Assembly (NCBI RefSeq): GCF_002150735.1
Contig: NZ_MUKA01000021.1
Span: 1-64,000, forward strand
Direction: 5' to 3'
From: Streptomyces africanus
Lineage (GTDB): Bacteria; Actinomycetota; Actinomycetes; Streptomycetales; Streptomycetaceae
DNA length: 64,000 bases
A model generated the notes under the pieces. That model was given only the letters and a program-made list of their open reading frames with translations, ran no database searches and was not told the DNA's origin. How positions within the stretch are numbered: position 1 is the stretch's first letter; each line of letters opens with the position of its first letter. Positions 21,201 to 64,000 of this stretch are shown piece by piece. Position numbers and translations under genes: made by a program.

Positions 21201-21223
21201 TTTCACTGTGAACGCTCCAGTTG

Positions 21224-27888: not shown

Positions 27889-27969
27889 GCGGTGGAGCCA
27901 CCGCCACCAGGGACAACAGCTGCTCCAGGAGATCGCTCCAAGCACCCGGGAGGCCGCATGCCTCACATG

Positions 27970-28011: not shown

Positions 28012-28155
28012 TGGAATCTTGCATCGGCACGCAGCATCAAGCAGATCGCAAGCCCCGCCCGGCACCGCGCTTCCTCGTGGCCGTGCACTGCGCACGCCAC
28101 CGGCACCACGCACCGCCGCTCCTGAGTCACCGTCCTGTCCGACAGGAGGACACGA

Positions 28156-31167: not shown

Positions 31168-31203
31168 CACGCCGGTCCGGCACCACCGCCACCCCCCGCC
31201 ACT

Positions 31204-31238
31204 CCGGCAGGCCTCCCCTCCCCTGGGGGGCCTGCCGG
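31204..31238 (+). terminator. Hairpin between the GH31 and GH123 genes
   Basis: CCGGCAGGCC (31204-31213) pairs perfectly with GGCCTGCCGG (31229-31238), and inner C/G runs extend the stem. It lies 37 bases past the GH31 stop and may separate or attenuate the downstream genes. Confidence 0.65.
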
Positions 31239-31279
31239 GGACCACTCCCTGCACAGCCGTGAGAATTGGAACCCACCCC

Positions 31280-38909: not shown

Positions 38910-38936
38910 TTCGACTCCTTCTCCACCCACGAGTGA
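38883..38936 (+). repeat. Perfect 27-bp tandem duplication at the esterase gene end
   Basis: The last 27 bases of the esterase gene, stop included (38883-38909), are repeated exactly at 38910-38936. The second copy is untranslated and sits just before the GH29 ribosome site. Confidence 0.9.
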
Positions 38937-38947
38937 GAGGCACGTTG

Positions 38948-40396
38948 ATGCCAGTCAACCGCAGACACTTCATGACCACCGCGGCCGCCCTCGGCGGCGC
39001 GGTGCTGCTCGCCCCGCCCGGCACCGCCCAAGCGCTCGCGCAGGGCGCCGTGTCCGGCGTCCCGGGCATCCCCGACTACCAGCCCACCAAGGCATCTCTC
39101 GACACTCACCCGGTGCCGCGCTGGTACAAGGACGCCAAGTTCGGCATCTTCGTGCACTGGGGCATCTACTCGGTGATCGGCGGCGCGACGCCGAGAAGCG
39201 CCTCAGAGTGGTACCTGTGGTACCAGAGCACCAAGGACACCGCCGAGTGGAAGTACCACCGCGACACCTACGGCGAGAACGTCACCTACGACGACATCAT
39301 CCCGCAGTTCAAGGCCGAGAAGTACGACCCCGACTCCTGGGTGAAGCTGTTCGAGCAGGCGGGCGCCGAGTACTTCGCGCTGACCAGCAAGCACCACGAC
39401 GGATTCGCCCTCTACCCGAGTCAGGTGACGGACCGTCACTCGGTGGCGTACGGCCCGAAGCGTGACCTCGTCGGCGAGCTGATGACCGCGGCCCGCAAGC
39501 GCGGCACCGTGCGCCCTGGCCTGTACTACTCGCTCGGCGAGTTCTTCAACCCGGCGATCGGCCGGCCGATGCGCAACTTCTACACCGACGAGGAAATCCC
39601 GATGACCGGCTACAAGCCGGTCCAGGACTACGTCGGCGACTACGAGCTCAAGCAGCTCTACGAGATCATCGACCGGTACGACCCGGAGCTGCTGTGGGCG
39701 GACGGACAGTGGTTCCGGCCCACCGGCAACCCGCCCTGGCGCAGCGAAGAACCCCTCGCCCACTACTACAACCAGGCCAAGAACCGTAAGTACCCCAAGG
39801 GTGTGGTGATCAACGACCGGTTCGACACCCACTTCGACTTCGCGACGTACGAGCAGCGCACCAACCCCACGATGGACCCCCAGAAGTGGGAGTGCTGCAT
39901 GACCATCGGCTACTCCTGGGGGTACAACAAGCACGAGCCGGACGAGGACTACAAGACCTCCGAGTTCCTGATCCAGCTGCTCGCCGACGTGGTCAGCAAG
40001 AACGGCAACCTGCTGCTGAACATCGGCCCCAAGCCGGACGGCACGATCCCCGACATCATGCAGGAGCGGCTGAAGGACATCGGCGCCTGGCTGAAGGTCA
40101 ACGGCCCCGCGATCTACGGGTCGACGCCCTGGGTGCGGGCGGAGGAGGAGGGCAGCCCTCTCGGCATCCGGTACACCGTGTCCCCGGGCAAGTTCAACAT
40201 CATCGTGCTGGGCAAGCCCAGCGGCACCCTTTCGGTGCCCGGCGACATCCCCATCAGCGCCACGTCCCGGATCCGGCTGCTCGGCACGAGCGGCAGTCTG
40301 CGGTGGACGCGCCGTGACGGAAAGATCGACATCACCGTGCCGTCCTCCCTGCCCAGCGACATCGCCAACGTCTTCACCGTCGACTGGGACCGGTGA
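38948..40396 (+). CDS. Tat-exported GH29 alpha-L-fucosidase
   Basis: A 482-residue enzyme with a twin-Arg signal (NRRHFMTTAAALGGAVLLA). GH29 features are RWYKDAKFGIFVHWGIYSV, YFALTSKHHDGFALYPSQV, GLYYSLGEFF, nucleophile Asp in ELLWADGQWF, and NGNLLLNIGPKPDGTIP. It releases alpha-linked L-fucose from glycan ends. GAGAGG lies 7 bases before the ATG. The catalytic domain stops with only a short beta domain; the accessory domains that its neighbours carry as C-terminal fusions are here encoded by the next two genes, the first overlapping by GTGA. Confidence 0.93.
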   Translation: MPVNRRHFMTTAAALGGAVLLAPPGTAQALAQGAVSGVPGIPDYQPTKASLDTHPVPRWYKDAKFGIFVHWGIYSVIGGATPRSASEWYLWYQSTKDTAEWKYHRDTYGENVTYDDIIPQFKAEKYDPDSWVKLFEQAGAEYFALTSKHHDGFALYPSQVTDRHSVAYGPKRDLVGELMTAARKRGTVRPGLYYSLGEFFNPAIGRPMRNFYTDEEIPMTGYKPVQDYVGDYELKQLYEIIDRYDPELLWADGQWFRPTGNPPWRSEEPLAHYYNQAKNRKYPKGVVINDRFDTHFDFATYEQRTNPTMDPQKWECCMTIGYSWGYNKHEPDEDYKTSEFLIQLLADVVSKNGNLLLNIGPKPDGTIPDIMQERLKDIGAWLKVNGPAIYGSTPWVRAEEEGSPLGIRYTVSPGKFNIIVLGKPSGTLSVPGDIPISATSRIRLLGTSGSLRWTRRDGKIDITVPSSLPSDIANVFTVDWDR

Positions 40397-41346
40397 GCGG
40401 CATGGCGATCAGCAGCGGTACGCAGTTCGACACCCTGGGCCCCACCCTCACCGTCACCACGCAGCCGGCCGAGCCGGCCGGCGGTGACCCGGTCACCGCC
40501 ACCGCGGTCCTCAGCAACGACTGCCCCTTCCCGCTCCGCAACGCCGTGCTCCACCTGATCAACCCCGGCGCCACCACGGCGGCGAAGACCATCCCCCTCG
40601 GTGACCTGCCGCGCGGCGCGAAGACGACCCGGCGCTGGGAGACGGCGATCCCGTCCGACGTGGCCGGGAGCCTTTCGTTCACCGCGCACCTGGTCTTCGA
40701 CGTCGACGAGCACAGCAGCGACTGCGCGCGGTCCGCGAAGACGTTCACCGTGCCCTACCGGCCCAACGGGGTGCGGGACCCGTACGGGACGTTCGCCACC
40801 ACCGACGACGCGAGGTTCGGCCAGTACGGCAGCCAGTTGGTGATCTGGGCGGGCGGCCGGGACCTCTCCGGCGGCACCGACGAGAAGGCGGGCATCCTGC
40901 GGCCCGGCTCCGCCGCCGAGGCGAGTGTGGTGCAGGTCGAGACGGTCAGCCTCACCGGGAGCGACAACCCCACCGCCAAGTACGGGATCGCCGTCGCGAA
41001 CGACCTGACCGCGCCGGAGAAGGGCGGCTACGCCGTCCTCACCATGTCCAAGTCGTACGGCCTGGAGTTCATGACCGACAGCGACGGCGACGGACACCTC
41101 GACACCTGGGCCGGCGGCGGCGCGTCCACCCACCCCGCCTTGCTGCGCCTGGTCCGCTCCGGCACGGCCTACACCGCCTACAGCAGTACCAACAACGGCC
41201 TCTCCTGGAACGAGATCGCGAGCGCCACCGTGCCGTCCGCGAGCGGCGCCCTGGACGCCGGCGTGGTGGCGAGCGCCGTGAACCTCAACTACCCCGGCAC
41301 GACGGTCCAGGCCGTGTTCGACCACTTCACCGTGGAGGAGTCATGA
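40393..41346 (+). CDS. NEW3-like plus shared C-terminal module protein without signal peptide
   Basis: A 317-residue protein made only of accessory domains. Residues ~12-120 are a NEW3-like beta-sandwich (TLTVTTQPAEPAGGDPVTAT, SLSFTAHLVFDVDEHSSDCA); residues ~125-317 are the module also found in the GH31, esterase and GH89 proteins (DPYGTFATTDDARFGQYGSQ, YGLEFMTDSDGDGHLDTWAG). There is no signal peptide and no catalytic domain. The GTG start overlaps the GH29 stop in another frame, so it looks like the detached tail of GH29. Either a frameshift split a fused gene, or the two products associate and leave together through Tat. Confidence 0.75.
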   Translation: MSGMAISSGTQFDTLGPTLTVTTQPAEPAGGDPVTATAVLSNDCPFPLRNAVLHLINPGATTAAKTIPLGDLPRGAKTTRRWETAIPSDVAGSLSFTAHLVFDVDEHSSDCARSAKTFTVPYRPNGVRDPYGTFATTDDARFGQYGSQLVIWAGGRDLSGGTDEKAGILRPGSAAEASVVQVETVSLTGSDNPTAKYGIAVANDLTAPEKGGYAVLTMSKSYGLEFMTDSDGDGHLDTWAGGGASTHPALLRLVRSGTAYTAYSSTNNGLSWNEIASATVPSASGALDAGVVASAVNLNYPGTTVQAVFDHFTVEES

Positions 41347-42239
41347 ACACCTACCGCCCCGAACAGGACTTCCTCCCGCCGCCGGTCCCCCTCACCGTCA
41401 CCCCGGCCACCCCCGAGCCGGGCCAGACCGTGACCCTGACCGCCACCCTCAAGAACACCACCGCCATCACACTGCGCGGCACCGTTCTCTACCTCGCCGT
41501 GGGCGACCTCGCGAAGTCGGACGACCTGGGCGACATCGCGCCCGGGCGGTCGGCCACCCGCACCTGGAAGACCAGGCTCCCCGACGACGCCGAAGGAGTG
41601 GTCCCCTGCATCGCGCACGCGCTCTTCGACGTGCACGAGAACGGATCCGACTGCACCCGCGCGACCTCGTCGCTGAAACTGCCGTACAGGTCGCTGGCCG
41701 GTGCCTTCGACAACGCCGGCATCTCCTCCGACGACGCCACCACCACCGCCGACATCGACGGCTCGCGGTCCAGCCTGTCCGCCGAGGCACTGGCCTCGGT
41801 CGGACTGACTCCCGGGGCCCCGGTCAGCTACGGCGGGACGACCTTCACCTGGCCGGACACCAAGCCCGGGGCCAAGGACAACGTGGTGTCCTCCGGGCAG
41901 ACCGTACGGCTGTCCGGCACCGGCTCACGGCTGGCCTTCATCGGCACCTCCACCTGGGGCGACGGCAAGGGCGACGGCAAGGTCGTCTACGCCGACGGCA
42001 CCGAGCAGGCGTTCTCGGTCGACGTCCCCGACTGGTACGGGAGGAACTCCTCCGCCGCGGTGGTGCTGCCCTACCGCAACACCCCCAGCGGCCGGGACGA
42101 CAACCCCGTCAGCCTGTTCACCTTCGGCGTCGATCTGACGGCCGGCAAGGAGCTGCGCTCCGTGGTTCTGCCCAAGGTCAGCGACGGCATCCAGTCGGGC
42201 GTCGCCGCCCTGCACATCTTCGCCATGACGATCAACTGA
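41343..42239 (+). CDS. NEW3-like plus C-terminal beta domain protein without signal peptide
   Basis: A 298-residue protein. The first ~120 residues (PLTVTPATPEPGQTVTLTAT, CIAHALFDVHENGSDCTRA) parallel the NEW3-like half of the preceding protein, including a Cys pair. The rest (AGISSDDATTTADIDGSRSS, LTPGAPVSYGGTTFTWPDTK, VVYADGTEQAFSVDVPDWYG) is the beta domain often found at the ends of Streptomyces secreted glycosidases. There is no signal peptide. It is coupled to the previous gene by ATGA and lies 19 bases before GH89. Probably a sugar-binding or scaffold partner. Confidence 0.7.
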   Translation: MNTYRPEQDFLPPPVPLTVTPATPEPGQTVTLTATLKNTTAITLRGTVLYLAVGDLAKSDDLGDIAPGRSATRTWKTRLPDDAEGVVPCIAHALFDVHENGSDCTRATSSLKLPYRSLAGAFDNAGISSDDATTTADIDGSRSSLSAEALASVGLTPGAPVSYGGTTFTWPDTKPGAKDNVVSSGQTVRLSGTGSRLAFIGTSTWGDGKGDGKVVYADGTEQAFSVDVPDWYGRNSSAAVVLPYRNTPSGRDDNPVSLFTFGVDLTAGKELRSVVLPKVSDGIQSGVAALHIFAMTIN

Positions 42240-42258
42240 GCTCTGCGGAAGGACGTTC

Positions 42259-45200
42259 ATGCACGACAACCGAGACGACCTGGGCATCACAGGTGTCACC
42301 CGCAGACGTATCCTCACCGGCGCGGTCGTGCTGGGCGGCGCCGCGCTGCTCCCCCGCCCGCAGGGCGCGTACGCCGCCGGCGGCACCCCGTTCGACAGCG
42401 CGCCCGCCGCGGCCGCGCTGAAGCGGCTGCTTCCCGACCACTACCAGCAGCTCACCCTGCGGGCCCTCGACGCCGGCACCGACCGCTTCCGGGTCACCGG
42501 CCGGGCCGGGCAGATCACGGTGGAGGGCACCAGCCCCGCCGTGCTGCTCGCGGGCGTGCACACCTACCTGCGGCGGACCGCGCACGCCTCCGTCTCCTGG
42601 ACCGGCGAGCAGCTGAACCTGCCACGCATCCTCCCCGCGCCGGCCGGGGAGATCACGGAAACGGCCAACGTGCCGCACCGCTTCGCCTTCAACGACACCA
42701 ACGAGGGCTACACCGGCGCCTACCGCGACTGGGACGCCTGGCAGTACGAGCTGGACGTGCTGGCCGCGCACGGAGTCAACCGGGTCCTCGTCTACATCGG
42801 CGGCGACGCCGTCTACTACGACACGTTCCGTCAGTTCGGCTACACCGACGCCGAGATGCGCGCCTGGATCCCGGCCCCGGCCCACCAGCCCTGGTGGCTG
42901 TTGCAGAACATGTCGGGCTTCGGCGGGCCGGTCTCGCGGCAGCTCATCGAGAAGCGTGCCGCGCTCGCCGGGAAGATCGTCGACCGGATACGTGACCTGG
43001 GCATGACGCCGGTGCTGCCGGGCTACTACGGCAGTGTCCCGGACGACTTCCCCGCCAAGCACGGCGGGGACGCGAAGGTGGTGGCGCAGGGCGACTGGGG
43101 CGCCTTCAAGCGCCCCGACTGGCTCGACCCGCGCACCACGGCCTTCGACGACGTGGCCGCCGCTTTCTACCGTGCCCAGAAGGAGCGGTTCGGCGCGAGC
43201 ACGATGTACAAGATGGACCTGCTGCACGAGGGCGGCAACGCCGGTGACGTGCCGGTGGGCGAGGCCGCGGGGGCCGTCGAGGCGGCGTTGCAGAAGGCCC
43301 GCCCCGGGGCCGTCTGGGCGATCCTCGGCTGGCAGAACAACCCGGCCAGGGAGCTGCTCGACGGCGTCGACAAGCGCCGGATGCTGATCGTGGACGGTCT
43401 GTCGGACCGCTACACCACCGTCACGGACCGGGAGAGCGACTGGGGCGGCACCCCGTACGCCTTCGGCAGCATCTGGAACTTCGGCGGCCACACCCCGATC
43501 GGCGCCAACGCCCCGGACTGGGTGGAGCAGTACCCCAAGTGGCGTGACAAGAAGGGCAGTTCGCTCGCGGGTATCGCTGCGATGCCGGAAGCCGCCGACA
43601 ACAACGCGCCCGCCCTCGCCCTCCTCACCGACCTGGCCTGGACACCCGGCACCGTCGACCTGGACGACTGGTTCGCCGCGTACGCCCTCTCCCGCTACGG
43701 CGGCCCGGACCGGCATGCCGCCGCGGCCTGGCAGACGATCCGCGACACCGCGTACAACATGTCCCGCGCGGACGGCTGGAGCGAGGCACCCGACGGACTG
43801 TTCGGCGCCCGCCCCAGCCTGACCGCGAACAAGGCCGCCGCCTGGGGACCGGAGAAGGATCGCTACGACACCACGGCCTTCGACGCCGCCCTCACCGAAC
43901 TCCTCGCGGTGCGAGCGGAGTTGAGGGACAGCTCGTCCTACCGGTACGACGTCGTCGACGTGGCCCGGCAGGTCCTGTCCAACCGCAGCCGGGTCCTGCT
44001 GCCGCAGATCAAGGCCGCACACGACGCCGGGGACAAGGCCCTGTTCGGCAGGCTGACCAAGACCTGGCTGGTCTGGATGGACCTCCTCGACGACCTGCTC
44101 GCGACCTCCGGCCCGCATCTGCTCGGGCGGTGGCTCGCCGACGCGCGCTCCTGGGGCGCCGACCGGGCCGAGAAGGACCGCCTGGAATACGACGTCCGCT
44201 CCCTCATCACCACCTGGGGCGGACGCAAGAGCAGCGAGGAGGGCCTGCACGACTACGCGAACCGGGAGTGGTCCGGACTGGTCGGCGGCCTGTACCGCAC
44301 CCGCTGGCAGACGTACTTCGACGCGCTCGCCACGGGCAAGGACCCGGCGACGATCGACTGGTTCGCCCTGGAGGACCGCTGGGCACACGCGCACGAGACG
44401 TACCCGACCGATCCCCACGGCTCCTCTTACACCCTGGCCCGCAACGTGCGCGACCTGCTCGCCGCCACTCCCTACCAGGCGGCCCTCACGGCGGGGGCCG
44501 ACCGGGGAGCGGTCGCCGAGGGCACGCCCGCGACGGTGACGGTCACCTTCACCAACAGGAACGGGTTCGCGGCGGCACGCGACGTGGCCCTCTCCGTCAC
44601 CGCACCCGAGGGCATGACGGTGAAGCCGCTCGATCCGGTGCGCACGGCGTCGGTGGCGTCGGGGAAGACGTTCGCCGCCCGCTTCGAGGTCTCTCTGGCC
44701 GGTCAGCCCACGGAACTGGTCGGCCGGGTCGTCGCGGCGGCGGCGTACGCGGGCGGCGGGAAGGCGGTGGCGCCGGTACGGCTGATGGCCGCGGCCGGGG
44801 TCGGCGACCCGTACCGCACGGTCTCCTACAACGACGCGGTGTTCGGCCAGGCCGGCGACGAGATCGCCATCGAGGGCGCGGGGGCCGACCTGTGGGGCGG
44901 CACCAACGAGTTCGGGGCGGTGTACCGGGCGGGCGCGTGCAAGGACGGAACGGTGGCCCAGGTCACGGTCACGTCCCAGGACGCGTCCGGGGGCTGGGCA
45001 CGGGCGGGCCTCATGGTCCGCGACGACCTCGGCACCCAGGGGAGCGCGGGCTATGTGAACCTGGCGGTCACACCGTCCAACGGCTGTGCGCTGAGCTGGG
45101 ACGCGGACGGTGACGGCCGTTTCGACTCGATCGAACTGTCGGGCTCCTTCACCGCTCCGGTGCGGCTGCGGCTGACCCGGTCCGGGACCTCGTACACCGG

Positions 45201-45357
45201 GGAGGCCAGCACGGACGGCGTCACCTGGACGACCGTGGGCACGGCCACACCCGCGGGCGCGTCCGCCGCACAGGACGTCGGGGTCTTCATGACCGCGGCC
45301 AACGGCTGGACCGACGGACGGGGCATCGCCACGTTCGACGGATTCACGGTGGCCTGA
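42259..45357 (+). CDS. Tat-exported GH89 alpha-N-acetylglucosaminidase with NEW3 and shared module
   Basis: A 1032-residue enzyme. GGAAGGA precedes the ATG; the signal is twin-Arg (VTRRRILTGAVVLGGAALL). GH89 (NAGLU) parts are an N-terminal alpha/beta domain (GVHTYLRRTAHASVSWTGEQ), RFAFNDTNEGYTGAYRDWDA, candidate acid/base Glu in YKMDLLHEGGNAGD (about residue 323), nucleophile Glu in GIAAMPEAADNNAPAL (about residue 444) and the C-terminal helical domain. NEW3 and a divergent copy of the shared module (GDPYRTVSYNDAVFGQAGDE) finish it. GH89 releases terminal alpha-GlcNAc, as found on some mucin glycans. It is the last gene of the glycosidase operon. Confidence 0.92.
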   Translation: MHDNRDDLGITGVTRRRILTGAVVLGGAALLPRPQGAYAAGGTPFDSAPAAAALKRLLPDHYQQLTLRALDAGTDRFRVTGRAGQITVEGTSPAVLLAGVHTYLRRTAHASVSWTGEQLNLPRILPAPAGEITETANVPHRFAFNDTNEGYTGAYRDWDAWQYELDVLAAHGVNRVLVYIGGDAVYYDTFRQFGYTDAEMRAWIPAPAHQPWWLLQNMSGFGGPVSRQLIEKRAALAGKIVDRIRDLGMTPVLPGYYGSVPDDFPAKHGGDAKVVAQGDWGAFKRPDWLDPRTTAFDDVAAAFYRAQKERFGASTMYKMDLLHEGGNAGDVPVGEAAGAVEAALQKARPGAVWAILGWQNNPARELLDGVDKRRMLIVDGLSDRYTTVTDRESDWGGTPYAFGSIWNFGGHTPIGANAPDWVEQYPKWRDKKGSSLAGIAAMPEAADNNAPALALLTDLAWTPGTVDLDDWFAAYALSRYGGPDRHAAAAWQTIRDTAYNMSRADGWSEAPDGLFGARPSLTANKAAAWGPEKDRYDTTAFDAALTELLAVRAELRDSSSYRYDVVDVARQVLSNRSRVLLPQIKAAHDAGDKALFGRLTKTWLVWMDLLDDLLATSGPHLLGRWLADARSWGADRAEKDRLEYDVRSLITTWGGRKSSEEGLHDYANREWSGLVGGLYRTRWQTYFDALATGKDPATIDWFALEDRWAHAHETYPTDPHGSSYTLARNVRDLLAATPYQAALTAGADRGAVAEGTPATVTVTFTNRNGFAAARDVALSVTAPEGMTVKPLDPVRTASVASGKTFAARFEVSLAGQPTELVGRVVAAAAYAGGGKAVAPVRLMAAAGVGDPYRTVSYNDAVFGQAGDEIAIEGAGADLWGGTNEFGAVYRAGACKDGTVAQVTVTSQDASGGWARAGLMVRDDLGTQGSAGYVNLAVTPSNGCALSWDADGDGRFDSIELSGSFTAPVRLRLTRSGTSYTGEASTDGVTWTTVGTATPAGASAAQDVGVFMTAANGWTDGRGIATFDGFTVA

Positions 45358-45387
45358 TGTCGCAGTGGCCGTAGCCAGGACCTGCCG

Positions 45388-45765
45388 TTATCCGGAGAGG
45401 ACGTCCCCCGTTTCCTGGGCGCGGGACAGCAGGCGGTACTGCGCGCTGCCGACCAGCAGTTCGTCGTGGGTGCCCGTGGCGACGACGCGGCCCGCGTCGA
45501 GGACGATGATCAGATCCGCGGCGCGGATCGTCGACATGCGGTGGGCGATCACCAGCAGCGTGCACTCGTCCGCGGTCTCCCGGATCGACCTGCGGAGCGC
45601 CACCTCGCTGACCGCGTCCAGATGGGCGGTCGGCTCGTCCAGCAGGAGCAGGCGTGGCCGGGTCAGCAGGGCACGGGCGATCGCGATCCGCTGGCGCTCG
45701 CCACCGGAGAGCGCCATGCCGTGCTCGCCGGTGGCGGTGTCGAGGCCCGCGGGAGGCGGTCGACC
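45388..45765 (-). pseudogene. ABC exporter ATPase, C-terminal fragment (lasso cluster remnant)
   Basis: The frame encodes only the last third of an exporter ATPase: [20 protein letters not shown], then [20 protein letters not shown] with Walker [21 protein letters not shown] and a tail. Walker A and the membrane domain are missing, and single-base shifts near 45750-45770 break the frame further upstream. The spacing and sequence style match the exporter (D gene) at the end of actinobacterial lasso peptide clusters. It is separated from the cyclase fragment by a few bases only, so a deletion removed everything between. Confidence 0.75.
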
Positions 45766-45775
45766 AGGTCCGTGC

Positions 45776-45976
45776 CGCGATCTTCATCTGGCCTGCCTCA
45801 CCGACGGTCAGGGCACGGGGCGACCAGTCGCCGAGCAGCCAGGGCCGACCCGATGGGTGGCCGACCTCCTGTGCCGCCCGGCCGCGGAGTGCGGCGCCGG
45901 TCCGGACCGCCGAAGCGCAGTCCGGAAGGACGACGACCCAGCCCGGCCGCTCGCCGGAATCGGGAAAATCAGCCAT
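45776..45976 (-). pseudogene. Lasso peptide macrolactam cyclase (asparagine synthetase-like), N-terminal fragment
   Basis: From ATG 45976 (AGGA upstream) about 67 codons read WVVVLPDCASAVRTGAALRG, VGHPSGRPWLLGDWSPRALT and [10 protein letters not shown]. The VLPD, HPSGRPWLxGxW and GxxxIAV-type blocks are those of the glutaminase-like N-terminal domain of lasso cyclases. The sequence then passes directly into the ABC transporter fragment; the synthetase domain (~500 residues) and the B genes are gone. The start lies 104 bases after the precursor gene, as in intact clusters. Alternative: another asparagine synthetase-like protein. Confidence 0.65.
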
Positions 45977-46080
45977 GCCGGCGTCCTGCCTGGAGGACCT
46001 GCCGTCCGGTGATCACAGAATCTGGGCGGAGGGACCCGCGTCCCACCGCCACAAGGGGGTGCTCGGGCGAGAAGGGAGGC

Positions 46081-46194
46081 TCAGAAGAACCTCCTCCTGA
46101 AGAACCAGAACCGTTCCGGTCCATCCCTGAAGCCGATACCGGTCTTGCGGAAAGTACCGGCCGCGGTCAGCGTCGGGCGCTCGTAAGTGCGCAT
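46081..46194 (-). CDS. Lasso peptide precursor (37 residues)
   Basis: The frame from ATG 46194 has a leader MRTYERPTLTAAGTFRKTG and a candidate core IGFRDGPERFWFFRRRFF. The leader carries the lasso recognition pattern Y-x2-P-x-L-x3-G-x-F with Thr at the penultimate position before the cut (KTG). Glu at core position 8 would close an 8-residue ring with Ile1; the tail is rich in Phe, Trp and Arg and has bulky plugs. It contains no Cys, so a class II lasso. The next gene downstream is a cyclase fragment, which supports the call; the maturation genes are missing here. It starts 17 bases after the GNAT gene. No strong ribosome site is seen. Confidence 0.8.
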   Translation of the reverse strand: MRTYERPTLTAAGTFRKTGIGFRDGPERFWFFRRRFF

Positions 46195-46211
46195 GTCGTG
46201 ACACCGGCGCG

Positions 46212-46733
46212 TCACCAATTCCTCACCAGGACCCGCGCGTTGCGCCGCGGGTCAAGCGACTCTGCCCAGGGCCGCGGCGCCAGGCGCGCGGCCGTGGGCG
46301 TGAAGCCGTAGCGGAGGAACAGCCCGCCACCTCCGGTGGTCGCCGTGAACAGGGCGGAGAGCGGCCGGGCGCGGGCCGTGGCCAGGACCGCCAGCAGCAG
46401 CCCGGCTCCCGCTCCGCTCCCCTGCCGGTGCTCCGCCACGCAGAAGTTGTAGACGACGCCCACGGGTCCGCCCTTCCCCTGGGCGGCCGGATACGCGCGC
46501 AGGCCCACGCCTCCGTCGAGGGTGCCGTCGGGGGCCTCCAGCACGAGGAAGTCCGCAGCGCGGGCGGCGTAGAGCGAGACGGGTCGCGGCCGTAACGCCC
46601 CCGAGTGCACGAAGGGTCGGGACAGGGCCGCGAGTGCGGCGGCGTCCTCCGGGCGGGCGGGGCGTACGACCGAGGTCGTCGTGAGAGGAGCGCGCGGCAG
46701 CGGCGGTGCCGTGGACGGCGTAACCGTGTTCAA
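46212..46733 (-). CDS. GNAT-family N-acetyltransferase
   Basis: A 173-residue acetyltransferase: TSVVRPARPEDAAALAALSR, DFLVLEAPDGTLDGGVGLRA, the acetyl-CoA loop in VAEHRQGSGAGAGLLLAVLA and LFLRYGFTPTAARLA. The layout recalls N-acetylglutamate synthase-like GNATs. Its start overlaps the amidohydrolase stop by four bases, and it ends 17 bases before the lasso precursor. Through the amidohydrolase and MbtH genes it is downstream of an iron box, so it may be made in iron starvation. Substrate unknown; an amine of siderophore metabolism is one possibility. Confidence 0.82.
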   Translation of the reverse strand: MNTVTPSTAPPLPRAPLTTTSVVRPARPEDAAALAALSRPFVHSGALRPRPVSLYAARAADFLVLEAPDGTLDGGVGLRAYPAAQGKGGPVGVVYNFCVAEHRQGSGAGAGLLLAVLATARARPLSALFTATTGGGGLFLRYGFTPTAARLAPRPWAESLDPRRNARVLVRNW

Positions 46734-48328
46734 GGCGTCCCTGCCCCGCTTCCGGATCCGCCGTCGCGTCGATCACGGCCGTCGACGTATGTCGCCACCA
46801 CCTCGATGCCGCCGATGCGGGCGGGGTCGACGCGCCACGGGTCGTCGCCGAGCACCACCAGGTCGGCGCGCTTGCCCGGGGAGAGGCTGCCGGCGCTGTC
46901 CTCCCAGTGGCAGGCGTAGGCACCGGCGACGGTGTAGGCGCGCACCGCCTCGTCCACGGTGATGCCCTCGTCCGGGCCGATCACCCGGCCGGACTCGGAG
47001 GCGCGTTCGACCATGAACTGGACGGCCCGCAGCGGGGATCCGTCGGTGACCGGCCGGTCGGAGCTGCCGACGAGGGTGATGCCGTGGTCCAGGAATCCCT
47101 TGCCCCGGTACAGCCACGGCGCGCGCTCCTCACCCATGATCGCCGCGTAGTCGTCGCCGAAGTACCGCAGGAAGTTGGGCTGGACGACGGCGCTCACGCC
47201 GAGTTGCGCCATGCGCGAGAGCTGGTCGGGGCGGATGAGGCCCGCGTGTTCGACGCGGTGCCGGACGCCGTGGCGCGGGCGGAGGCGCTGGGCCCGTTCC
47301 AGGGCGTCCAGGGCGACGTCGGCCGCGCGGTCGCCGATCGCGTGCACGGCGAGCTGCCAGCCGGCGAGGTGGCCGTCCACGATGAGGTCCGTGAGCGTCT
47401 CGGGATCCTCCTGCAACTGCCCGGTATGGTCGAGCCCTTCGTACGGACTGCTCAGCGCGGCCGTACGGGCCATCATGCCGCCGTCGGTGTAGACCTTCAG
47501 GGCGCCGACGGAGAGCCAGTCGTCGCCCAGGCCCGTGCGCAGGCCGAGGCCGAGGGCCCTGGGAATGCCGTCGGCCTCGTGTGCGGCGACGGGCCGCAGC
47601 CGGTCGGCGGCGACCATGAGCTGCACGCGTAGCGGCAACAGGCCTTTCTCACGGGCGAGTTGGTAGGCGCCGAGTTCGACGGGGCTGTGCCCGAACAGGG
47701 CACCTCCGATGCCTGCCTCGGCGCAGGCGGTGACACCTTCGGCGACGCAGGTCCGGGCGGCGCGTCCGATCGCCTCGGCGAGCTCCTCCTGGGAGTACGG
47801 CAGACGCAGGGCGCGGGCGGCGCCCATCGCGCCCTCGGCGAAGAAGCCGTTCTCGTGGGGGACATCGGCGGGGAGCAGGTCCAGGACGGCGGTGTTGACG
47901 ACGCAGCCGTGTCCGGAGTCGTGCAGCACGAACACCTTGCGTCCGTGGCTCACCCGGTCCAGTTCGGCGGCCGTCAGATGGCGGCCCAGGGCCCGCTGGT
48001 CGTATCCGGCGATGCTGACCCAGGCGCCGGGCGAGGCCGTGCCGCGGACGGCTTCCGCAACGACGGCCAGGACCTCGTCGATCCGCGTGCGGCCCGCGAT
48101 GCTCGGCGTGTTCTGCTTGAACCCGGTCCAGGCGAGGTGCACATGGGCGTCGATGAACCCGGGCAGCACGGTGGCGCCCTGAAGGTCGATCACCTCCCGT
48201 GCGGGCAGCGAGGTCACGGCCTCGTCGAGGCCGACGATCCGGCCCCGCCAGATGCCCAGGTCGTGGGCGACGGGGTGGTCCGGGTCCATGGTGACGAAGC
48301 GGGCGTTCGTCAGTCTGGTGCAGAGCAT
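46730..48328 (-). CDS. Amidohydrolase of the YtcJ type
   Basis: A 532-residue metal-dependent hydrolase (amidohydrolase_3). Metal ligands are DAHVHL in TVLPGFIDAHVHLAWTGF, a Lys in SVGALKVYTDGGMMA, His residues in WQLAVHAIGDRAAD and RHRVEHAGLI, and Asp in VGSSDRPVTDGSPL. The C-terminal small sandwich ends with GSLSPGKRADLVVLGDDPW. Relatives cleave formyl, acyl or other amide bonds. It starts 6 bases after mbtH and overlaps the GNAT gene, forming an iron-controlled unit; it is not a usual coelichelin gene to my knowledge. Confidence 0.85.
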   Translation of the reverse strand: MLCTRLTNARFVTMDPDHPVAHDLGIWRGRIVGLDEAVTSLPAREVIDLQGATVLPGFIDAHVHLAWTGFKQNTPSIAGRTRIDEVLAVVAEAVRGTASPGAWVSIAGYDQRALGRHLTAAELDRVSHGRKVFVLHDSGHGCVVNTAVLDLLPADVPHENGFFAEGAMGAARALRLPYSQEELAEAIGRAARTCVAEGVTACAEAGIGGALFGHSPVELGAYQLAREKGLLPLRVQLMVAADRLRPVAAHEADGIPRALGLGLRTGLGDDWLSVGALKVYTDGGMMARTAALSSPYEGLDHTGQLQEDPETLTDLIVDGHLAGWQLAVHAIGDRAADVALDALERAQRLRPRHGVRHRVEHAGLIRPDQLSRMAQLGVSAVVQPNFLRYFGDDYAAIMGEERAPWLYRGKGFLDHGITLVGSSDRPVTDGSPLRAVQFMVERASESGRVIGPDEGITVDEAVRAYTVAGAYACHWEDSAGSLSPGKRADLVVLGDDPWRVDPARIGGIEVVATYVDGRDRRDGGSGSGAGTP

Positions 48329-48334
48329 CGGGCG

Positions 48335-48547
48335 TCAGGCGTCGAGGGACTCGGCGAGGGAACGGGGGCGCAGGTCCGTCCAGTTGGCCTCGACGTACTC
48401 CAGGCAGGCCTCCCGGGTGTTCTCCTCGAAGGCGATCGTCCAGCCCCCGGGCACGTCCGCGAAGGACGGCCAGAGCGAGTGCTGGCCCTCGTCGTTCACG
48501 AGGACGAGGAAACGGCCGTCGGCGTCGTCGAAGGGGTTGGTGCTCAT
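48335..48547 (-). CDS. cchK: MbtH-like NRPS helper protein (CchK-type)
   Basis: A 70-residue MbtH protein with the family pattern [33 protein letters not shown] and [20 protein letters not shown]. It binds and activates adenylation domains of the siderophore synthetase. The gene lies 22 bases from a 19-base iron box and diverges from the Fes-like esterase. In the coelichelin cluster of S. coelicolor the mbtH gene (cchK) is likewise next to the esterase gene (cchJ), as I recall. Confidence 0.92.
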
Positions 48548-48569
48548 GTGCCGGTGCCTCCTATGAAAA

Positions 48570-48588
48570 TTAGGTTAGGCTCGCCTAA
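48570..48588. promoter_or_regulatory. Iron box (DmdR/IdeR-type) between mbtH and the esterase gene
   Basis: TTAGGTTAGGCTCGCCTAA matches the 19-base consensus TTAGGTTAGGCTAACCTAA at 17 positions. It sits in the 91-base divergent gap and should repress both directions when iron is sufficient. Confidence 0.9.
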
Positions 48589-48638
48589 TCGCAAGTGAGC
48601 TTAGCCTTCTCGCTTTCCGCTCCACAAGGAGACGTCGC

Positions 48639-49730
48639 ATGAGGTTGGTGGGGGACGACACGTTCGCCGCGTTCGGACTGCCCGGCGCACCCGGCACCGA
48701 CGCGTTCTGGGAGGCCGCGCGGTCACCCGTGTCGATACCGGACGGCGACGGCTGGACGACCCTCTTCCTGTGGCGTGGGTCCGGTGCGGCGGCCATCGAC
48801 TTCGAGAGCTGGTCCGAGCCGGTTCCGTTGGGCCGGTTCGGTGACACGGACTGCTGGTTCGCCGTGGTGCGCATGCCCGCCCGGCTGCGCGTGACGTACC
48901 GGTTCCGCGTGGGCGAGGAGACGTACGCGGATCCGTTCAACCCGGCCGGCGCCGGCGGCGACCGGTCCGTCGCCGCGACGCCGGACGCCCCGGCCCAGCC
49001 GCACTGGCCCGCTGTCGGAGCCGACGACGTGCTGCCCCTCCCCCGCACCCGGATCCGCTGGGCCGGTGAACGGCTGGGCGGGCGGCGGACCGTGCGTGTG
49101 CATCCTGCAGGCGGTGGCGGGCCGGTGGTCCTGCTGCTCGACGGGGACGACTGGCTGTATCTCCACCCGGCCATGACCGCGTTCGACTCGGCGGTCGCCG
49201 GCGGTGAGATGCCGCCGGTCACCCTCGTCTTCCTGCCGGCCGGGGACAGGGAGGCGGAGTTCGCGTGCCGGCCCGAGCTGTGGGAGGCGGTCCGGGACGA
49301 ACTGCTGCCGCTGGTGGCGGAGTCGGGGGTGACCGCCGAGGTCGACCGGCTGGTCGTCGCCGGGCAGAGCCTTGGTGGGTTGAGTGCGGTGTACGCGGCG
49401 CTGGAATTGCCGGACCTGGTGACCCGCGTCGCCTGTCAGTCGGGGTCGTTCTGGTGGACACCCGACGCCCTGGGCCTGGCCGACCCCTTGGGCGGCCCGG
49501 TCGGCGGCACCATCGCCGCGCGCCTGCGGCAGCGCCCGGACCTGTCCGGCCTGCGGATCGCGTTCGACGTGGGGGAACACGAGACGCGGATGCTGCCCCA
49601 CTGCGAACTGACCGAGACCCTGGCGGAACGGGCCGGCGCCACCGTACGGGTCTCCCGGTCACCGTCGGGCCACGACCGGGCGGGCTGGCGTCACGCCCTG
49701 CTCAGGGATGTCGCCTGGGCGCTCGCTTGA
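48639..49730 (+). CDS. cchJ: Fes-like siderophore esterase (CchJ-type)
   Basis: A 363-residue alpha/beta hydrolase of the enterochelin-esterase family: an N-terminal Fes_N-like domain (WTTLFLWRGSGAAAIDFESW, VTYRFRVGEETYADPFNP) and an esterase domain with the nucleophile in VVAGQSLGGLSAVYAALELP, and His in SRSPSGHDRAGWRHAL. CchJ-type enzymes hydrolyse or release the siderophore chain in the absence of a thioesterase domain. ATG 48639 is preceded by AAGGAG. It diverges from mbtH at the iron box. A kinase gene on the other strand ends 64 bases further on. Confidence 0.87.
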   Translation: MRLVGDDTFAAFGLPGAPGTDAFWEAARSPVSIPDGDGWTTLFLWRGSGAAAIDFESWSEPVPLGRFGDTDCWFAVVRMPARLRVTYRFRVGEETYADPFNPAGAGGDRSVAATPDAPAQPHWPAVGADDVLPLPRTRIRWAGERLGGRRTVRVHPAGGGGPVVLLLDGDDWLYLHPAMTAFDSAVAGGEMPPVTLVFLPAGDREAEFACRPELWEAVRDELLPLVAESGVTAEVDRLVVAGQSLGGLSAVYAALELPDLVTRVACQSGSFWWTPDALGLADPLGGPVGGTIAARLRQRPDLSGLRIAFDVGEHETRMLPHCELTETLAERAGATVRVSRSPSGHDRAGWRHALLRDVAWALA

Positions 49731-49794
49731 GGCGTGCGGACCGGCGATCGGTACGCCGGGTCCGGCGGTACGGCCCGCTGCCCCATGGCCCTCG

Positions 49795-51798
49795 TCACCC
49801 CCGCTGCGGCGGGATCAACGCTGACGCGGGGGCCAGTTCCCGGCCGCCGTCCCGGTCGTCGGGGAGCGCCGCGTCGTGCCCCGGCGTGTCGTCCCGTATC
49901 AGGTTCTCGCGGATGAGGACGGCCGCGGTGGCGCCGCCGCTCTCCGAGGGGCGCAGTTCGACTCTCAGGCCCTGCCGGGCGGCGATGCGGTTGACCACGA
50001 AGAGGCCGATCTGCTTGGCGTCGAGCAGGTCGATGTTCTCGGACTGGATCTTGCGGTTGGCCTCGGCCATCGCCTCCTCGTTCATGCCGAAGCCGCTGTC
50101 CTCGATCTCGATGAGGAGGCCGTCGCGCAGCCGGGCGGCCCGCAGCCGGACCTGGGTGCTGGGCGGTGAGAACGAGGCCGCGTTCTCGACGAGTTCGGCG
50201 AGCAGGTGGATGACGTCGGCGACGGAGCCGCCGTTGACGGAGACGCGCGGTACGGGCCAGAGCTGGACCCGGCCCGGCTGCTCGATCTCCGCGACGGCGG
50301 CCCGCAGGACGTCATCCAGCGGGATGGGGTCGCGCCAGCCGCGTCCGGGTGCGATGCCGGACAGGATGAGCAGGCTCTCGGAGTGGCGCCGCATCCGGGT
50401 GGCGAGGTAGTCGACCTGGTACAGCTCCTGCACCTCGGCCGGGTCGCGCGGGCGCTGCTCCAGCTGGTGGAGCAGGTCGAGCTGGCGGTGCAGCAGCACC
50501 TGGCCGCGGCGGGCGATGCTGACGTACACCCCGGAGATGCCGCTTTGCAGTTCGGCGCGCTCGGAGGCGGCCTTGAGCGCGGCCCGCTGTACGGCGGTGA
50601 GTGCGGTGCCCACCTGGGCGAGTTCGTCGCCGACGAGGCGGCGCATCGGGGCCTCGGCGTCGATGTCCACGCCGTGCCCGGCGTGCAGTCTGCGCATGGC
50701 CTGCGGCAACCGGCGCCCGGCGACCTCCAGGGCGGAGTTGCGCAGGTCGAGCAGTTCGACGATGAGTCCGCGGCCGACGCCCACGGACACCAGCAGCGAC
50801 AGCAGCACACCCATCAGACCGAGGATGACGGCGATGCCCGAGGCGCCCAGCGTGTCCCAGCCGAACGGGTTCGCCTGGGCCGTGGCGCCCGTGCCGGCGT
50901 CCGCCTGGGCCTCGGCGAGGTCCTTCAGCACGGTGTCGGCGCCCGTGTCCCAGTCCTTCAGGAAGCCGGCGGAGACGACCTGGGCGCCGGGTCCGGCGCT
51001 GCGCACCCGGTCCTCGCCCGCCGCGAGCCCGTCGTAACTCTGGCTGGTCAGCACCTCGTTGTACACGGCCCGGTGGGCCGGCTTCAGGTCGGCGACCGCG
51101 GGCTTCAGCAGCTCCCGCTGGGTGGCGACGGCCCCGACGAACAGCGTGTACTGCTCCGTGGTGAGCTTTCCCGCCCCGCTCCCCGCGGCGAGGAGGGACT
51201 GTTCCTGGGCCACCGCCTCGCGGGCGCGGGCGAGTTCCAGGACGACCCGGGCCTCTGATGCGGCGTGAGTGCCGTTCTCCCCGGTGAGCGCGCCGGTGAC
51301 GGCGAAGGCGTCCTCGATGATGGTCGAGTACCCCGTGAAGGCCTTCTGAGCGGCGCCCTTCGCCTCGGTCTTCGCGCGCAGCGCCGTGAGCCCGCGCGTG
51401 TCGGCTTCCAGGCGGTCGATGCGGGCGGGCAGGCCCGCGTCGAGGAGCGCGGAGTCCGCGGCGGCGGCGTCGGCGCCCTGACGGAAGGCGGCGGCGGCCT
51501 CGTCGGTGGCCTTCCGGGCCTCCTCGACCGTGTCGCGCCCGGCCGGGTCCGGCGCGGCGGCGTGGCGGGTGACGGCGGTCCGCTCAGCCTGCAACGCGAT
51601 GACGAACTCGTCGAGGGGGGCGAGGAGTTCGGCGTTGACGTCCTTGACCCGCTCGGTGTCGCCGATGCTGGAGGCCGTCGTCACCGCGGCGAAGCCCCAC
51701 AGGGCCATGAGGGACACGATGGGCAGCATGAGCAGGGCGACGATCTTGGCCCGGACCGATCGGGGGCGCAGCCGTTCCCTTGCACGGGTGACAGGCAT
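49795..51798 (-). CDS. Nitrate/nitrite-sensor-type histidine kinase
   Basis: A 667-residue membrane protein. Helix 1 (KIVALLMLPIVSLMALWGFA), an outside helical NIT-like domain of ~280 residues rich in Ala, a second helix (GIAVILGLMGVLLSLLVSVG), a HAMP region, a long helical stretch and an HATPase domain (HLLAELVENAASFSPPSTQV, IEDSGFGMNEEAMAEANRKI, GLFVVNRIAARQGLRVEL). No typical phosphoacceptor H-box is seen, as in CvnA-type kinases of Streptomyces conservons. It follows the MHYT gene by 49 bases. No iron box precedes it. It separates cchJ from the exporter and NRPS genes. Confidence 0.85.
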   Translation of the reverse strand: MPVTRARERLRPRSVRAKIVALLMLPIVSLMALWGFAAVTTASSIGDTERVKDVNAELLAPLDEFVIALQAERTAVTRHAAAPDPAGRDTVEEARKATDEAAAAFRQGADAAAADSALLDAGLPARIDRLEADTRGLTALRAKTEAKGAAQKAFTGYSTIIEDAFAVTGALTGENGTHAASEARVVLELARAREAVAQEQSLLAAGSGAGKLTTEQYTLFVGAVATQRELLKPAVADLKPAHRAVYNEVLTSQSYDGLAAGEDRVRSAGPGAQVVSAGFLKDWDTGADTVLKDLAEAQADAGTGATAQANPFGWDTLGASGIAVILGLMGVLLSLLVSVGVGRGLIVELLDLRNSALEVAGRRLPQAMRRLHAGHGVDIDAEAPMRRLVGDELAQVGTALTAVQRAALKAASERAELQSGISGVYVSIARRGQVLLHRQLDLLHQLEQRPRDPAEVQELYQVDYLATRMRRHSESLLILSGIAPGRGWRDPIPLDDVLRAAVAEIEQPGRVQLWPVPRVSVNGGSVADVIHLLAELVENAASFSPPSTQVRLRAARLRDGLLIEIEDSGFGMNEEAMAEANRKIQSENIDLLDAKQIGLFVVNRIAARQGLRVELRPSESGGATAAVLIRENLIRDDTPGHDAALPDDRDGGRELAPASALIPPQRG

Positions 51799-51847
51799 GG
51801 GCTACCTCTTCGACGGTGTGTGCTGTGCGGCTCTGCGGACGTACGGC

Positions 51848-52669
51848 TCAGACGGTCGTGGTCGCAGTGGGGGCGGGGGCGGGCGTGGTGGCGGTCGCGG
51901 TGGAGAGCTCGACCTCGCGCAACAGTTCGGCGGCGACGGACTCGGCGCGCTTGCCGGTCGGGGAGAGCGCGACGTACGCGGAGGCGAGGAAGAGGAACGA
52001 GCCGAGCACGACGGCGAGCGGGAAGAGGAACTCGGTGGCCGTGGCCCCGGGCAGTTCCGCGCTGCTGGGCGTGAGGCTGACGCGGACGGCGTACATGGCG
52101 GTGTAGTGCATGCTGCTGACCGCGAGTCCCATGACGAGCGCGGCGACGGCTGCGAGGGCGGGGCCGCGCACGATGAGGGTGAGGGTGAGCGCGGCGGTCG
52201 CGGCGACGACGGCGATCGCGACGGAGGCGAAGACGAGGAACGGGTCGTAGTCGATGCTGCCGTGCAGATTGAGCGCGGCCATGCCGGCGTAGTGCATGGC
52301 GGCGACGCCCAGTCCGGTGCCGAGCCCGCCGAGCGCCACCGACGTGATGCGTGAACGCCCGTACCCGGCGGTGAAGACGCCGGCGCTGACGACGACGATG
52401 GCCATGACGAGGCTGAGCACGGTGAGCGGAACGTCGTAGCGGATGGGGGTGCCCTCGACACTGAAGCCCATCATCGCGACGAAGTGCATGGTCCAGATGC
52501 CGGAGCCGATCGCGAACGAGGCCAGCACCAGCCAGTTCCGTTTCGAGGCGCCGTCGGCATCCAGGGCCCTGACCGTGCACCGCAGGCCGAGCGCCGAGCC
52601 GACGCAGGCCATGACGTAGGAGAGGACGGGGGTGACCCATCCGGCGCTGAAGTGGTCCATGTGCCCCAC
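51848..52669 (-). CDS. MHYT-domain membrane protein
   Basis: A 273-residue protein with seven membrane helices and three MHYT-type motifs: GIWTMHFVAMMGFS, AAMHYAGMAALN and SSMHYTAMYAV. The Met and His residues are proposed to bind a metal (copper) that senses O2, CO or NO. There is no attached output domain. The GTG at 52669 follows GAGAGGGG; the ATG at 52660 is an alternative. It is co-directional with the NIT-type kinase downstream, so both may form a gas/nitrogen-oxide sensing unit placed inside the siderophore locus. Confidence 0.88.
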   Translation of the reverse strand: MGHMDHFSAGWVTPVLSYVMACVGSALGLRCTVRALDADGASKRNWLVLASFAIGSGIWTMHFVAMMGFSVEGTPIRYDVPLTVLSLVMAIVVVSAGVFTAGYGRSRITSVALGGLGTGLGVAAMHYAGMAALNLHGSIDYDPFLVFASVAIAVVAATAALTLTLIVRGPALAAVAALVMGLAVSSMHYTAMYAVRVSLTPSSAELPGATATEFLFPLAVVLGSFLFLASAYVALSPTGKRAESVAAELLREVELSTATATTPAPAPTATTTV

Positions 52670-52994
52670 GGGAAACCCCTCTCGCCCGCCGGGCGGGGAG
52701 CTCAGCGCGCACGTGAGTACCGCCGGTAAGAGAGACCCGGGGGAACGAGATCGCGCCACTGCCTACCGGAGGTCGGTGAGGATTAAAGTACTGCGGTGTG
52801 TGTTACGGGCGTGTTTGCACGCAAGTGCTTCACATATTCCTTACACGGCCTGTACTTTCACCGTCGATCGCCTCGTCGCTGCCGCGCGCCACCGAAGCGG
52901 CCGGCACCTGGCGCAGCGGAACGTCAGGGGACGACAGCGCTCCGTACAGCGCGTGCGTGGCCGAAAAGTGTTCAGGAAGCGGTCACTACGTGGG
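52670..52994. other. 325-bp gap with an AT-richer promoter-like segment
   Basis: No coding sequence was recognised. An AT-richer stretch (about 52780-52860, including ATTAAAGTACTG and CACATATTCCTTACACGG) could be the promoter of the MHYT/kinase unit. TTTGCACGCAAG forms a small inverted repeat. No iron box was found here. Confidence 0.4.
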
Positions 52995-54695
52995 TCACCG
53001 GGCCACGGCCAGGCAGTAGTTCTCGTCCGTGGCCAGGAGGTTGCGGTGTGTGTCCTCCGCCGTGACGACTCCGTCGTCCAGGACGAGGACCCGGTCGGCG
53101 GCGTCCAGGAGGGCCGGGCTGCTGGTGAGGACGATGGTGGTGCGGCCCCGGCGCAGCTTCGCCACGTTGCGGGCGATGAGCTGTTCCGTGACCGCGTCGA
53201 CGGCCGTCGTCGGGTCGTGCAGGACGAGGACGTCGCTGTCGGCGGCCAGGGCGCGGGCCAGGGAGAGCCGTTGGCGCTGTCCCCCGGAGAGGTTCGCGCC
53301 GCGGTCGCGGACGGCGTAGTCGAGGCCCTCGCGGTGCAGGGCGACGACATCGGTCAGCATGGACGCCTCGACGGCGTCGGGGACCATGCGGCTGGTGCCC
53401 GACGGGTCGATGTTCGAGCGGAGCGTCCCCGCGAAGATCTCCCCGTCGTACGGGTTCACCAGCACGTGCTCGCGGACCGCCTCGACGGACAGGTCCGCGA
53501 GGTCCCGGCCGCCGACCCGTACCGTTCCCTCGTACGCGCCGGGCGGGACGTTCACGGCCAGGATCGACGCGAGGTCGGCCGCCGCGCGCGGCTGGTAGGC
53601 GGCGATCGCCACGAACTCTCCCGCGGACACCTGGAACTTCAGCTTGCGCAGGGTTCCGTACTCGACGCAGTCGAGCTCCACGTCCCCGTTCTCGGCCGGG
53701 CGTTCGGATCCCGGCGTCATCACCGGTGGCGCGGTCAGCACCAGCGCCATGCGCTCGGCCGAGGCGCGGGCCATCATCACGTACTTCGGCATCTCCGAGA
53801 ACAGCTTCAGCGGTTCCATGATGAACTGCGCCAGGCCGACGGCCATGACCAGTTCGCCGATGCTGATCCGGCCGTCGAACGCCAGCCGGCCGGCCAGCAG
53901 TGTCACGGCGCCGGCGAGCACCGCGTTGAGGGCCAGCGCGGTGCCCGCGTACGCGCCGTTCACCTTGGCGACGGTGATCGCCTGGACCTTCGCCTCCGTG
54001 CTGACCTTCCGGTAGGACCGGAACGCCGCATGGTTGCCGCCGAAGCCGTGCAGCGGGCGCAGACCGGTGATCAGGTCGGCGACCTTCGCGCCCGCCCGCG
54101 CCACCCGGGCCTGCTGTTCCTGGGTGCTGGTGCCGATCCGCCTGGACAGCACGCTCAGACAGGACAGGATCGCGACGGTTCCCACGATCACCAGCAGGCC
54201 GAGCCGGACGTCGGCCAGGCCGAGCGCGAGAGCCGCGACCACCACCGCGACCAGCGAACTGATCAGCAGCGGCACGACCTCGATGATGTCGGCGGTCTGG
54301 TCGGCGTCCTCGGTGGCGATGGTCAGCACCTCGCCGGACTTGAGGTCGACGTCCCTGGCGACCGGCTGGAGACCGCAGGCCGCGACCTTCACGCGCCAGC
54401 GGTGTGCCTCCGTCGTGTTGGCCTTCTGCAGGATGCGCATCCCGAACCGCCAGGACAGCGACACGGTCGTGATGATCACGGCCAGTACGGCGATCGAGAG
54501 GCCGAGCGCACCGAGGCCGCGGTCCCGCATCGTGTGCTCGACGATCAGGCCGAGCGCGATGGGGAAGGCCGTCTCGCCCGCCTGGTACAGGCCCATGAGG
54601 AGGGTGCCGCCGGCCATGGCGCCGACGTTGCGGCGCAGGGCGGCGCGGAGGATGTCGGACCCCGAGCGGGGCCGCTGCGTGTCAGGAGTTGTCAT
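52995..54695 (-). CDS. cchI: ABC exporter, fused permease-ATPase, with degenerate ATPase motifs (CchI-type)
   Basis: A 566-residue exporter half. An N-terminal six-helix domain (about 30-320) is followed by an ATPase domain with a normal signature ([18 protein letters not shown]). Elsewhere it is abnormal: the Walker A place reads [20 protein letters not shown] with no GxGK(S/T); Walker B reads [12 protein letters not shown] with His for Asp and Asp for Glu; the switch His is missing ([11 protein letters not shown]). The ATG at 54695 overlaps the NRPS 3' end by 14 bases. Position after the NRPS matches cchI of coelichelin clusters, thought to export the siderophore. Confidence 0.85.
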
Positions 54696-63600: not shown

Positions 63601-64000
63601 CTCTTCGAGCCGCAGTACCGCCGCGACCGCAGCGCAGACCGCGCGTTCGTTCTCGGTGGTGGGCCGTACGAGCGTGCCCGTGCCGATCACGGGCTCCGGC
63701 AGGGCGTTGCGGTCGAGCTTGCCGTTGGCGGTGAGCGGGAACTCCGTGAGCACGACGATGTGGGCGGGCACCATGTACTCGACCATGTGCTCGGCGGCCC
63801 ACGCCTTGACCTCGTCCGCCCGCAGGTCCTCGCTGCCCGCGGCCGGGATGACGTAGCCCACCAGGTAGGTGCCGCCCGCCGTGTTCTTCCGGGCGACGAC
63901 GCAGGTGTGCCGTACGCCGGGGTGTTCGGCGAGGCCGGCCTCGACGTCCTCGATCTCCAGCCGCATGCCGCGGATCTTGATCTGGTTGTCGGCACGGCCG
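54682..64000 (-). CDS. cchH: Coelichelin-type NRPS, C-terminal ~3100 residues (5' end outside the window)
   Basis: The frame is open at the right edge. Domain order visible: end of A1; T1 (GGDS near 63561); E1 (HHVVIDG near 63050); C2 (HHIVADG near 61610); A2 ([11 protein letters not shown] near 60250); T2 (GGDS near 59075); E2 (HHLAVDA near 58565); C3 (HLLLWDG near 57350); A3 ([11 protein letters not shown] near 55990); T3 (GGHS near 54810); stop. There is no thioesterase. A2 residues give the code D-F-W-N-I-G-M-V-H(-K), threonine; with E2 this yields D-allo-Thr. A3 residues give D-M-E-N-L-G-L-I-N(-K), the N5-hydroxyornithine code. This matches CchH and predicts coelichelin or a close analogue. 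Confidence 0.93.
59168..59226 (+). repeat. Streptomyces dispersed repeat inside the NRPS linker
   Basis: CTGCGGGTGCGTCGTGGC and GCGCAGTTCCCCGCGCCCCC are nearly the sequence of a very common intergenic repeat of Streptomyces chromosomes, as I remember it. Here it lies in frame between the A2 end ([10 protein letters not shown]) and T2, encoding [14 protein letters not shown] on the minus strand. Confidence 0.6.

Follow-up and report, generated by a model that had tools for sequence, protein, structure and literature searches.

The 37-codon frame at positions 46081 to 46194 (minus strand) of the 64,000-nucleotide stretch of Streptomyces africanus DNA analysed here (the window) was very probably the stranded leftover of a decayed lasso peptide cluster, and not a working gene. 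The sequence-only reading of this DNA had described it as an apparently intact precursor gene. This held for the coding sequence, but the upstream region with its Shine-Dalgarno site, the genes for C, B1 and B2, and most of the exporter gene were deleted.

The frame possessed an intact coding sequence running from ATG to TGA (46194 to 46081), exactly where it had been placed earlier, with the strand now added; its 37-residue product was MRTYERPTLTAAGTFRKTGIGFRDGPERFWFFRRRFF. On the plus strand, the open frame over the same positions was unrelated to the precursor. The leader MRTYERPTLTAAGTFRKTG (19 residues, 46138-46194, minus strand) carried the Tyr/Pro/Leu/Gly motif and the lasso leader pattern YERPTLTAAGTF, with a Thr at position -2 of the predicted cleavage site (RKT-G/IGF, the slash marking the site), which bears out the sequence-only reading on both counts. 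The predicted core IGFRDGPERFWFFRRRFF (18 residues, 46084-46137, minus strand) also had the Glu8 proposed as ring acceptor, and would thus form an 8-residue ring from Ile1 to Glu8; its dehydrated form had a computed monoisotopic mass of 2417.245 Da. Its single Trp and five Arg agreed with the earlier count, while the number of Phe was six and not five. A Thr at the penultimate leader position is a trait of lasso precursors according to the available text of PMC10368454, and in that of PMC8498205 an Asp or Glu closes the ring of seven to nine residues in lasso peptides.

Only one Pfam family matched the window precursor, PF19397 (DUF5972; 37 bits for a cut-off of 22.6, E 2.5e-9). The score with the NCBIfam model lasso_leader_L3 (NF033521) was slightly below the cut-off (17.9 bits against 19), and the homologue in the genome Streptomyces G140 scored 17.2 with the same model. 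When all six frames of the 64 kb window were scanned for the leader motif, a single match was returned, which was this precursor. At the level of the genus, DUF5972 was matched in 57 of the 295 sampled genomes, S. africanus counted. The 37-codon frame is a true lasso precursor by descent.

The same core tail was found in a few relatives. A degenerate FWFFRRRFF pattern searched over genome contigs gave 25 stretches, five of which encoded exactly FWFFRRRFF, and three of these five were located in a lasso precursor, namely in strain NRRL B-1140, S. coeruleorubidus ATCC 13740 and S. violaceus NRRL B-2867. With the window's own counted, G140 was the fifth genome with this tail, and it alone carried the pattern among the 392 genomes of the genus drawn, S. 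africanus left out. The S. violaceus precursor shared 36 of 37 residues with that of the window (4 of 111 nucleotides differing), including the whole leader, which aligned with no differences; the sole change was Ala5 of the core in place of Asp5. Core positions 5-6 were accordingly Asp-Gly in the window, Ala-Gly in the four same-tail homologues and Arg-Gly in loci L058-L061. The core was LGFRAGPERFWFFRRRFF in S. coeruleorubidus (L082) and NRRL B-1140 (L078), and IGFRAGPERFWFFRRRFF in G140. In the window and these four homologues, the Thr was penultimate in the leader at the predicted cleavage site (FRKTG/IGF or FRKTG/LGF). Glu8, the acidic ring residue by position, was kept within a GPE motif in L057-L061, L078, L082 and L090, and GPPD replaced GPE, slightly further along, in the more distant L062, L063 and L066. 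Wider relatives had the leader and GPE in common, but their tails differed (LGTNRGPERVIPLRFSL in G049, for example). When the C fragment and the precursor together served as a DNA query against 199 relatives, 41 gave matches, mostly over short and apparently chance stretches, and no new carrier of the core came to light; G140 was absent among the matches listed.

The sequence-only reading had not recognised the core, and the 5.39 million open-access papers searched made no mention of its letters, of the FWFFRRRFF tail, of DUF5972 or of PF19397. Within the limits of that search, the FWFFRRRFF family with its enzymes is an uncharacterised lasso family of a known kind. The split B1/B2 lasso class, as presented in the available text of PMC8498205, has the leader motif, the Thr at -2 and the acidic residue 8 in common with the window, and its PqqD-type B1, transglutaminase-like B2 and Asn-synthase-like C are present in the relatives, unlike in the genome of the window, which is without the enzymes.

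The distribution of these enzymes was determined by tblastn over 17 sources with the S. coeruleorubidus proteins C (611 aa, Asn_synthase domain), B1 (126 aa, PqqD), B2 (157 aa, Transglut_core3) and D (608 aa, ABC) as queries, exporter matches of 45% identity or less being left out. The query B1 and B2 passed the NCBIfam lasso PqqD and lasso B2 models, and the query C reached 247 bits with NF033561, below the cut-off of 300. All four genes were matched at nine loci (L058-L063, L066, L078 and L090), the exporter alone at five (L064, L065 and L067-L069), and a distant C-like sequence alone at L073. In S. violaceus, S. coeruleorubidus and NRRL B-1140, homologous precursors had lasso enzyme genes beside them; the sequence-only reading had named the lack of any such neighbourhood as evidence that would speak against it, and this part of the objection falls away with the homologues found. 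The L078 locus of NRRL B-1140 ended within D, and the C gene of S. violaceus (L090) was interrupted by N runs in the sequence record.

In the window, by comparison, the same queries matched only residues 1-68 of C and 478-595 of D, in the order expected next to the precursor, and gave no tblastn match for B1 or B2. The C fragment (45775-45976, minus strand) corresponded to the start of the lasso cyclase gene (~68 codons), with 73.5% amino acid identity to S. coeruleorubidus C 1-68, and codons 1-68 were all that the locus retained of a full-length cyclase. The Pfam scan assigned this fragment to no family, and it was identified through its tblastn match (E 8.6e-25). The remnant of the ABC exporter D (45388-45773, minus strand) comprised the C-terminal residues ~478-595 of 608 and had a further 1-nt deletion near 45748, a frameshift absent from all five homologues aligned.

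The alignment with S. violaceus located the losses. Contig C17 of S. violaceus was collinear with window positions 45385-63999 at 80-95% identity, and possessed 4455 bp more at 45774 and 2003 bp more at 46204, the several remaining length differences being each below 300 bp. At the first junction (45774-45775, minus strand), where the DNA match to relatives stopped, ~4.45 kb was missing relative to S. violaceus C17:16374-20828, comprising the remainder of C, both B genes and most of the exporter gene, and C and D were fused out of frame. At the second (46204-46206, minus strand), ~10 nt upstream of the precursor ATG and ~430 bp from the first, ~2.0 kb was missing relative to C17:21306-23308, comprising the native upstream region of the precursor together with isochorismatase and amino-acid-kinase genes. 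Inspection of the junctions by eye for microhomology revealed nothing convincing. In another genome, G009, acetyltransferase, kinase and isochorismatase genes were side by side, the latter two recognised from their resemblance to the S. violaceus proteins; no lasso genes were present in the 16 kb fetched from G009, which also had no DUF5972 match. Since the kinase and isochorismatase genes adjoin the acetyltransferase gene in G009 too, their absence from the window represents a loss.

Overall, the S. violaceus NRRL B-2867 locus (L090; G472:C17 ~15984-21306) resembled the window in its precursor, in the acetyltransferase and amidohydrolase genes nearby and in the order of the surviving A, C and D. 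It differed in having C, B1, B2, D, an AGGAGG site and Ala5, and in the kinase and isochorismatase genes that separate its lasso cluster from the acetyltransferase gene, which is not so in the window. S. coeruleorubidus ATCC 13740 and NRRL B-1140 likewise possessed C, B1, B2 and D, unlike the window, and in S. coeruleorubidus the lasso cluster was far from the acetyltransferase locus (~3.2 vs 8.2 Mb). In the window, the amidohydrolase gene (46730-48328, minus strand) precedes the acetyltransferase gene and forms the synteny flank. To the left of the cluster remnant, window positions 27876-45384 and S. violaceus C17 8406-15983 had no match among those listed, with matching sequence on both sides; this stretch of the window contained a NAGLU-type glycosidase gene (42259-45357) unshared with S. 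violaceus.

The second deletion also changed the start signals of the precursor. An AGGAGG or GGGAGG was present upstream of the precursor ATG in all eight homologues shown, and the window's AGGAGG was removed at this junction. The pairing energy of the ribosome site was -14.0 to -20.4 in 11 close relatives compared with -7.1 at the window ATG, a value attained by 34% of 1200 random ATG/GTG starts in the window. As 32 more distant precursors, mostly of another type, also reached only -7.1 to -13.1 (L013 having -7.1 like the window), a poor ribosome site is not by itself proof of a dead gene. The promoter was probably lost with the upstream region. Directly upstream of the precursor now lies a GNAT acetyltransferase gene (46212-46733, minus strand), whose stop codon TGA (46214-46212) overlaps a GTG of the precursor frame (46215-46213) as GTGA, an arrangement created at the junction. 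A GAGG-like site before this in-frame GTG had an energy of -8.3, near the values of many distant precursors. Translational coupling of the two genes was rejected as a candidate, since 21.5% of the 1200 random ATG/GTG codons from the window attained this energy. Going by the sequence, some read-through of the precursor frame from the acetyltransferase gene may conceivably occur.

The enzymes missing from the locus were also searched for in the rest of the genome, a draft assembly of 9.1 Mb in 736 contigs rated 99.99% complete. The S. africanus genome had no match to the B2 models PF13471 and NF033537 and none to the B1 model PF05402, each of which was positive in 8/8 control relatives picked for their known lasso genes. 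Six Asn_synthase proteins were encoded, the weakest of which, at a contig edge (L073; G000:C137 1-2142, minus strand), was lasso-cyclase-like (NF033561, 217 bits for a cut-off of 300). It had matches in all 11 other Streptomyces tested (74-99% identity in ten, 38% in one), eight of which had no precursor match, and it is considered a widespread stand-alone paralogue. Given its spread across the genus, it is improbable as the cyclase lost from the window cluster, and it was dropped as a candidate C on this ground. A missing piece may in principle have escaped assembly, the draft being in 736 contigs; with the genes that the assembly shows, the maturation steps cannot run in S. africanus.

A second broken copy was present in G140 (L057, 8587-11001), where C was matched over residues 1-57 and then frameshifted, D was a near full-length exporter (residues 7-592), and tblastn found no B1 or B2 at the locus. 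Unlike the window, G140 retained the AGGAGG site, and its precursor locus was ~370 kb from its own amidohydrolase locus. Its only B1 and B2 matches belonged to a separate lasso locus, which we take to be citrulassin-like. The cyclase breakpoint of G140 lay within 1-3 nt of that of the window. A deletion common to both was disfavoured, the window and the enzyme-bearing S. violaceus resembling each other more than either resembles G140 in the precursor gene (4 of 111 nucleotides differing, compared with 13) and in the exporter tail (95.4% identity vs 91.2%), and the G140 copy lying elsewhere; the C fragment is a contrary point, as there G140 was slightly nearer to the window (82.1%) than to S. 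violaceus (79.8%). We read the two cyclase breaks as two coincident events at one place, and transfer between lineages may have played a part.

Several other readings of the precursor were weighed. That it is a working orphan, processed in trans by lasso enzymes encoded on other parts of the genome, agrees with its intact coding sequence, with the lasso-cyclase-like L073 protein and with the situation in G140, where the copy without C, B1 and B2 coexists with another lasso locus bearing B1 and B2 able, in theory, to act on it in trans. It is nevertheless very unlikely, given that none of the three B1/B2 models, all working in 8/8 controls, found a match in the S. africanus genome, and that L073 is widespread, including in 8 of 11 hosts without a precursor match. 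An assembly artefact, with a complete cluster in the strain and misjoins at both junctions, could be suspected in a 736-contig draft with two clean junctions ~430 bp apart, but is hardly to be expected when no other contig carries a B1 or B2 match, the assembly is rated 99.99% complete and the exporter remnant has a frameshift of its own. For a chance open frame that merely resembles a lasso precursor, only the shortness of the frame can be cited; the 36/37 residues common to the precursor beside the lasso enzymes of S. violaceus, the Pfam E value of 2.5e-9, the single motif hit in 64 kb and the adjoining remnants of cyclase and exporter in the expected order reduce its probability practically to nil, and it was discarded.

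The frame could also have been captured as the last cistron of an MbtH/amidohydrolase/acetyltransferase run, giving an unmodified cationic-aromatic peptide of some use. The GTGA overlap with its GAGG-like site (-8.3) fits such an arrangement; against it, 21.5% of random starts attain the same energy, the overlap, a product of the deletion junction, may be fortuitous, neither S. violaceus nor G009 has the arrangement, and the operon would itself be a prediction, so that very little credence is given to this reading. A bolder version holds that the survival of the FWFFRRRFF precursor after the loss of its enzymes is no accident, as two lineages without C, B1 and B2, broken within 1-3 nt of each other, keep the core (17/18 residues), and that the GTGA-joined frame of the window makes an unmodified membrane-active peptide; this is a highly speculative proposal with a very small chance of being right.

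A decayed lasso cluster with a stranded precursor remains by far the best explanation. In the lasso route, as set out in the available text of PMC8498205, B1 binds the leader, B2 removes it and C closes the ring, of seven to nine residues, at an acidic side chain. The same route in S. violaceus, S. coeruleorubidus and NRRL B-1140 would have B1 bind the leader, B2 cut after Thr-Gly, C join Ile/Leu1 to Glu8 and D export the product. The ancestor of the window probably had the A-C-B1-B2-D set that S. violaceus still has in the vicinity of the shared acetyltransferase and amidohydrolase genes. One deletion would then have taken B1 and B2 entirely, almost the whole of C and the greater part of D, and another the upstream region and ribosome-binding site of the precursor, the order and age of the two being matters of conjecture. 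That the 37-codon frame is nearly unchanged would mean either that little time has passed since the losses or that mutation has so far missed such a short target. The precursor coding sequence shows no decay of its own (4/111 nucleotides, 1/37 residues), so its continued use is possible on sequence. Between the window and S. violaceus, dN and dS were 0.012 and 0.125 for the precursor gene, and 0.119 and 0.193 for the C fragment, the latter with a ratio similar to that between S. violaceus and S. coeruleorubidus (0.133/0.226); the changes in the precursor and C fragment are too few for any claim of selection.

No lasso peptide would be expected from this S. africanus strain. The case tells an intact frame apart from a working gene: a search for precursors only would score S. 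africanus as a lasso producer, wrongly on this evidence. S. coeruleorubidus ATCC 13740, S. violaceus NRRL B-2867 and NRRL B-1140 are the better strains in which to look for the peptide, the dehydrated core of which has a computed mass of 2373.255 Da there ([M+3H]3+ at 792.092). Together, the five genomes that share one core, of which three have the enzymes and two do not, form a small natural series on the death of a RiPP cluster.
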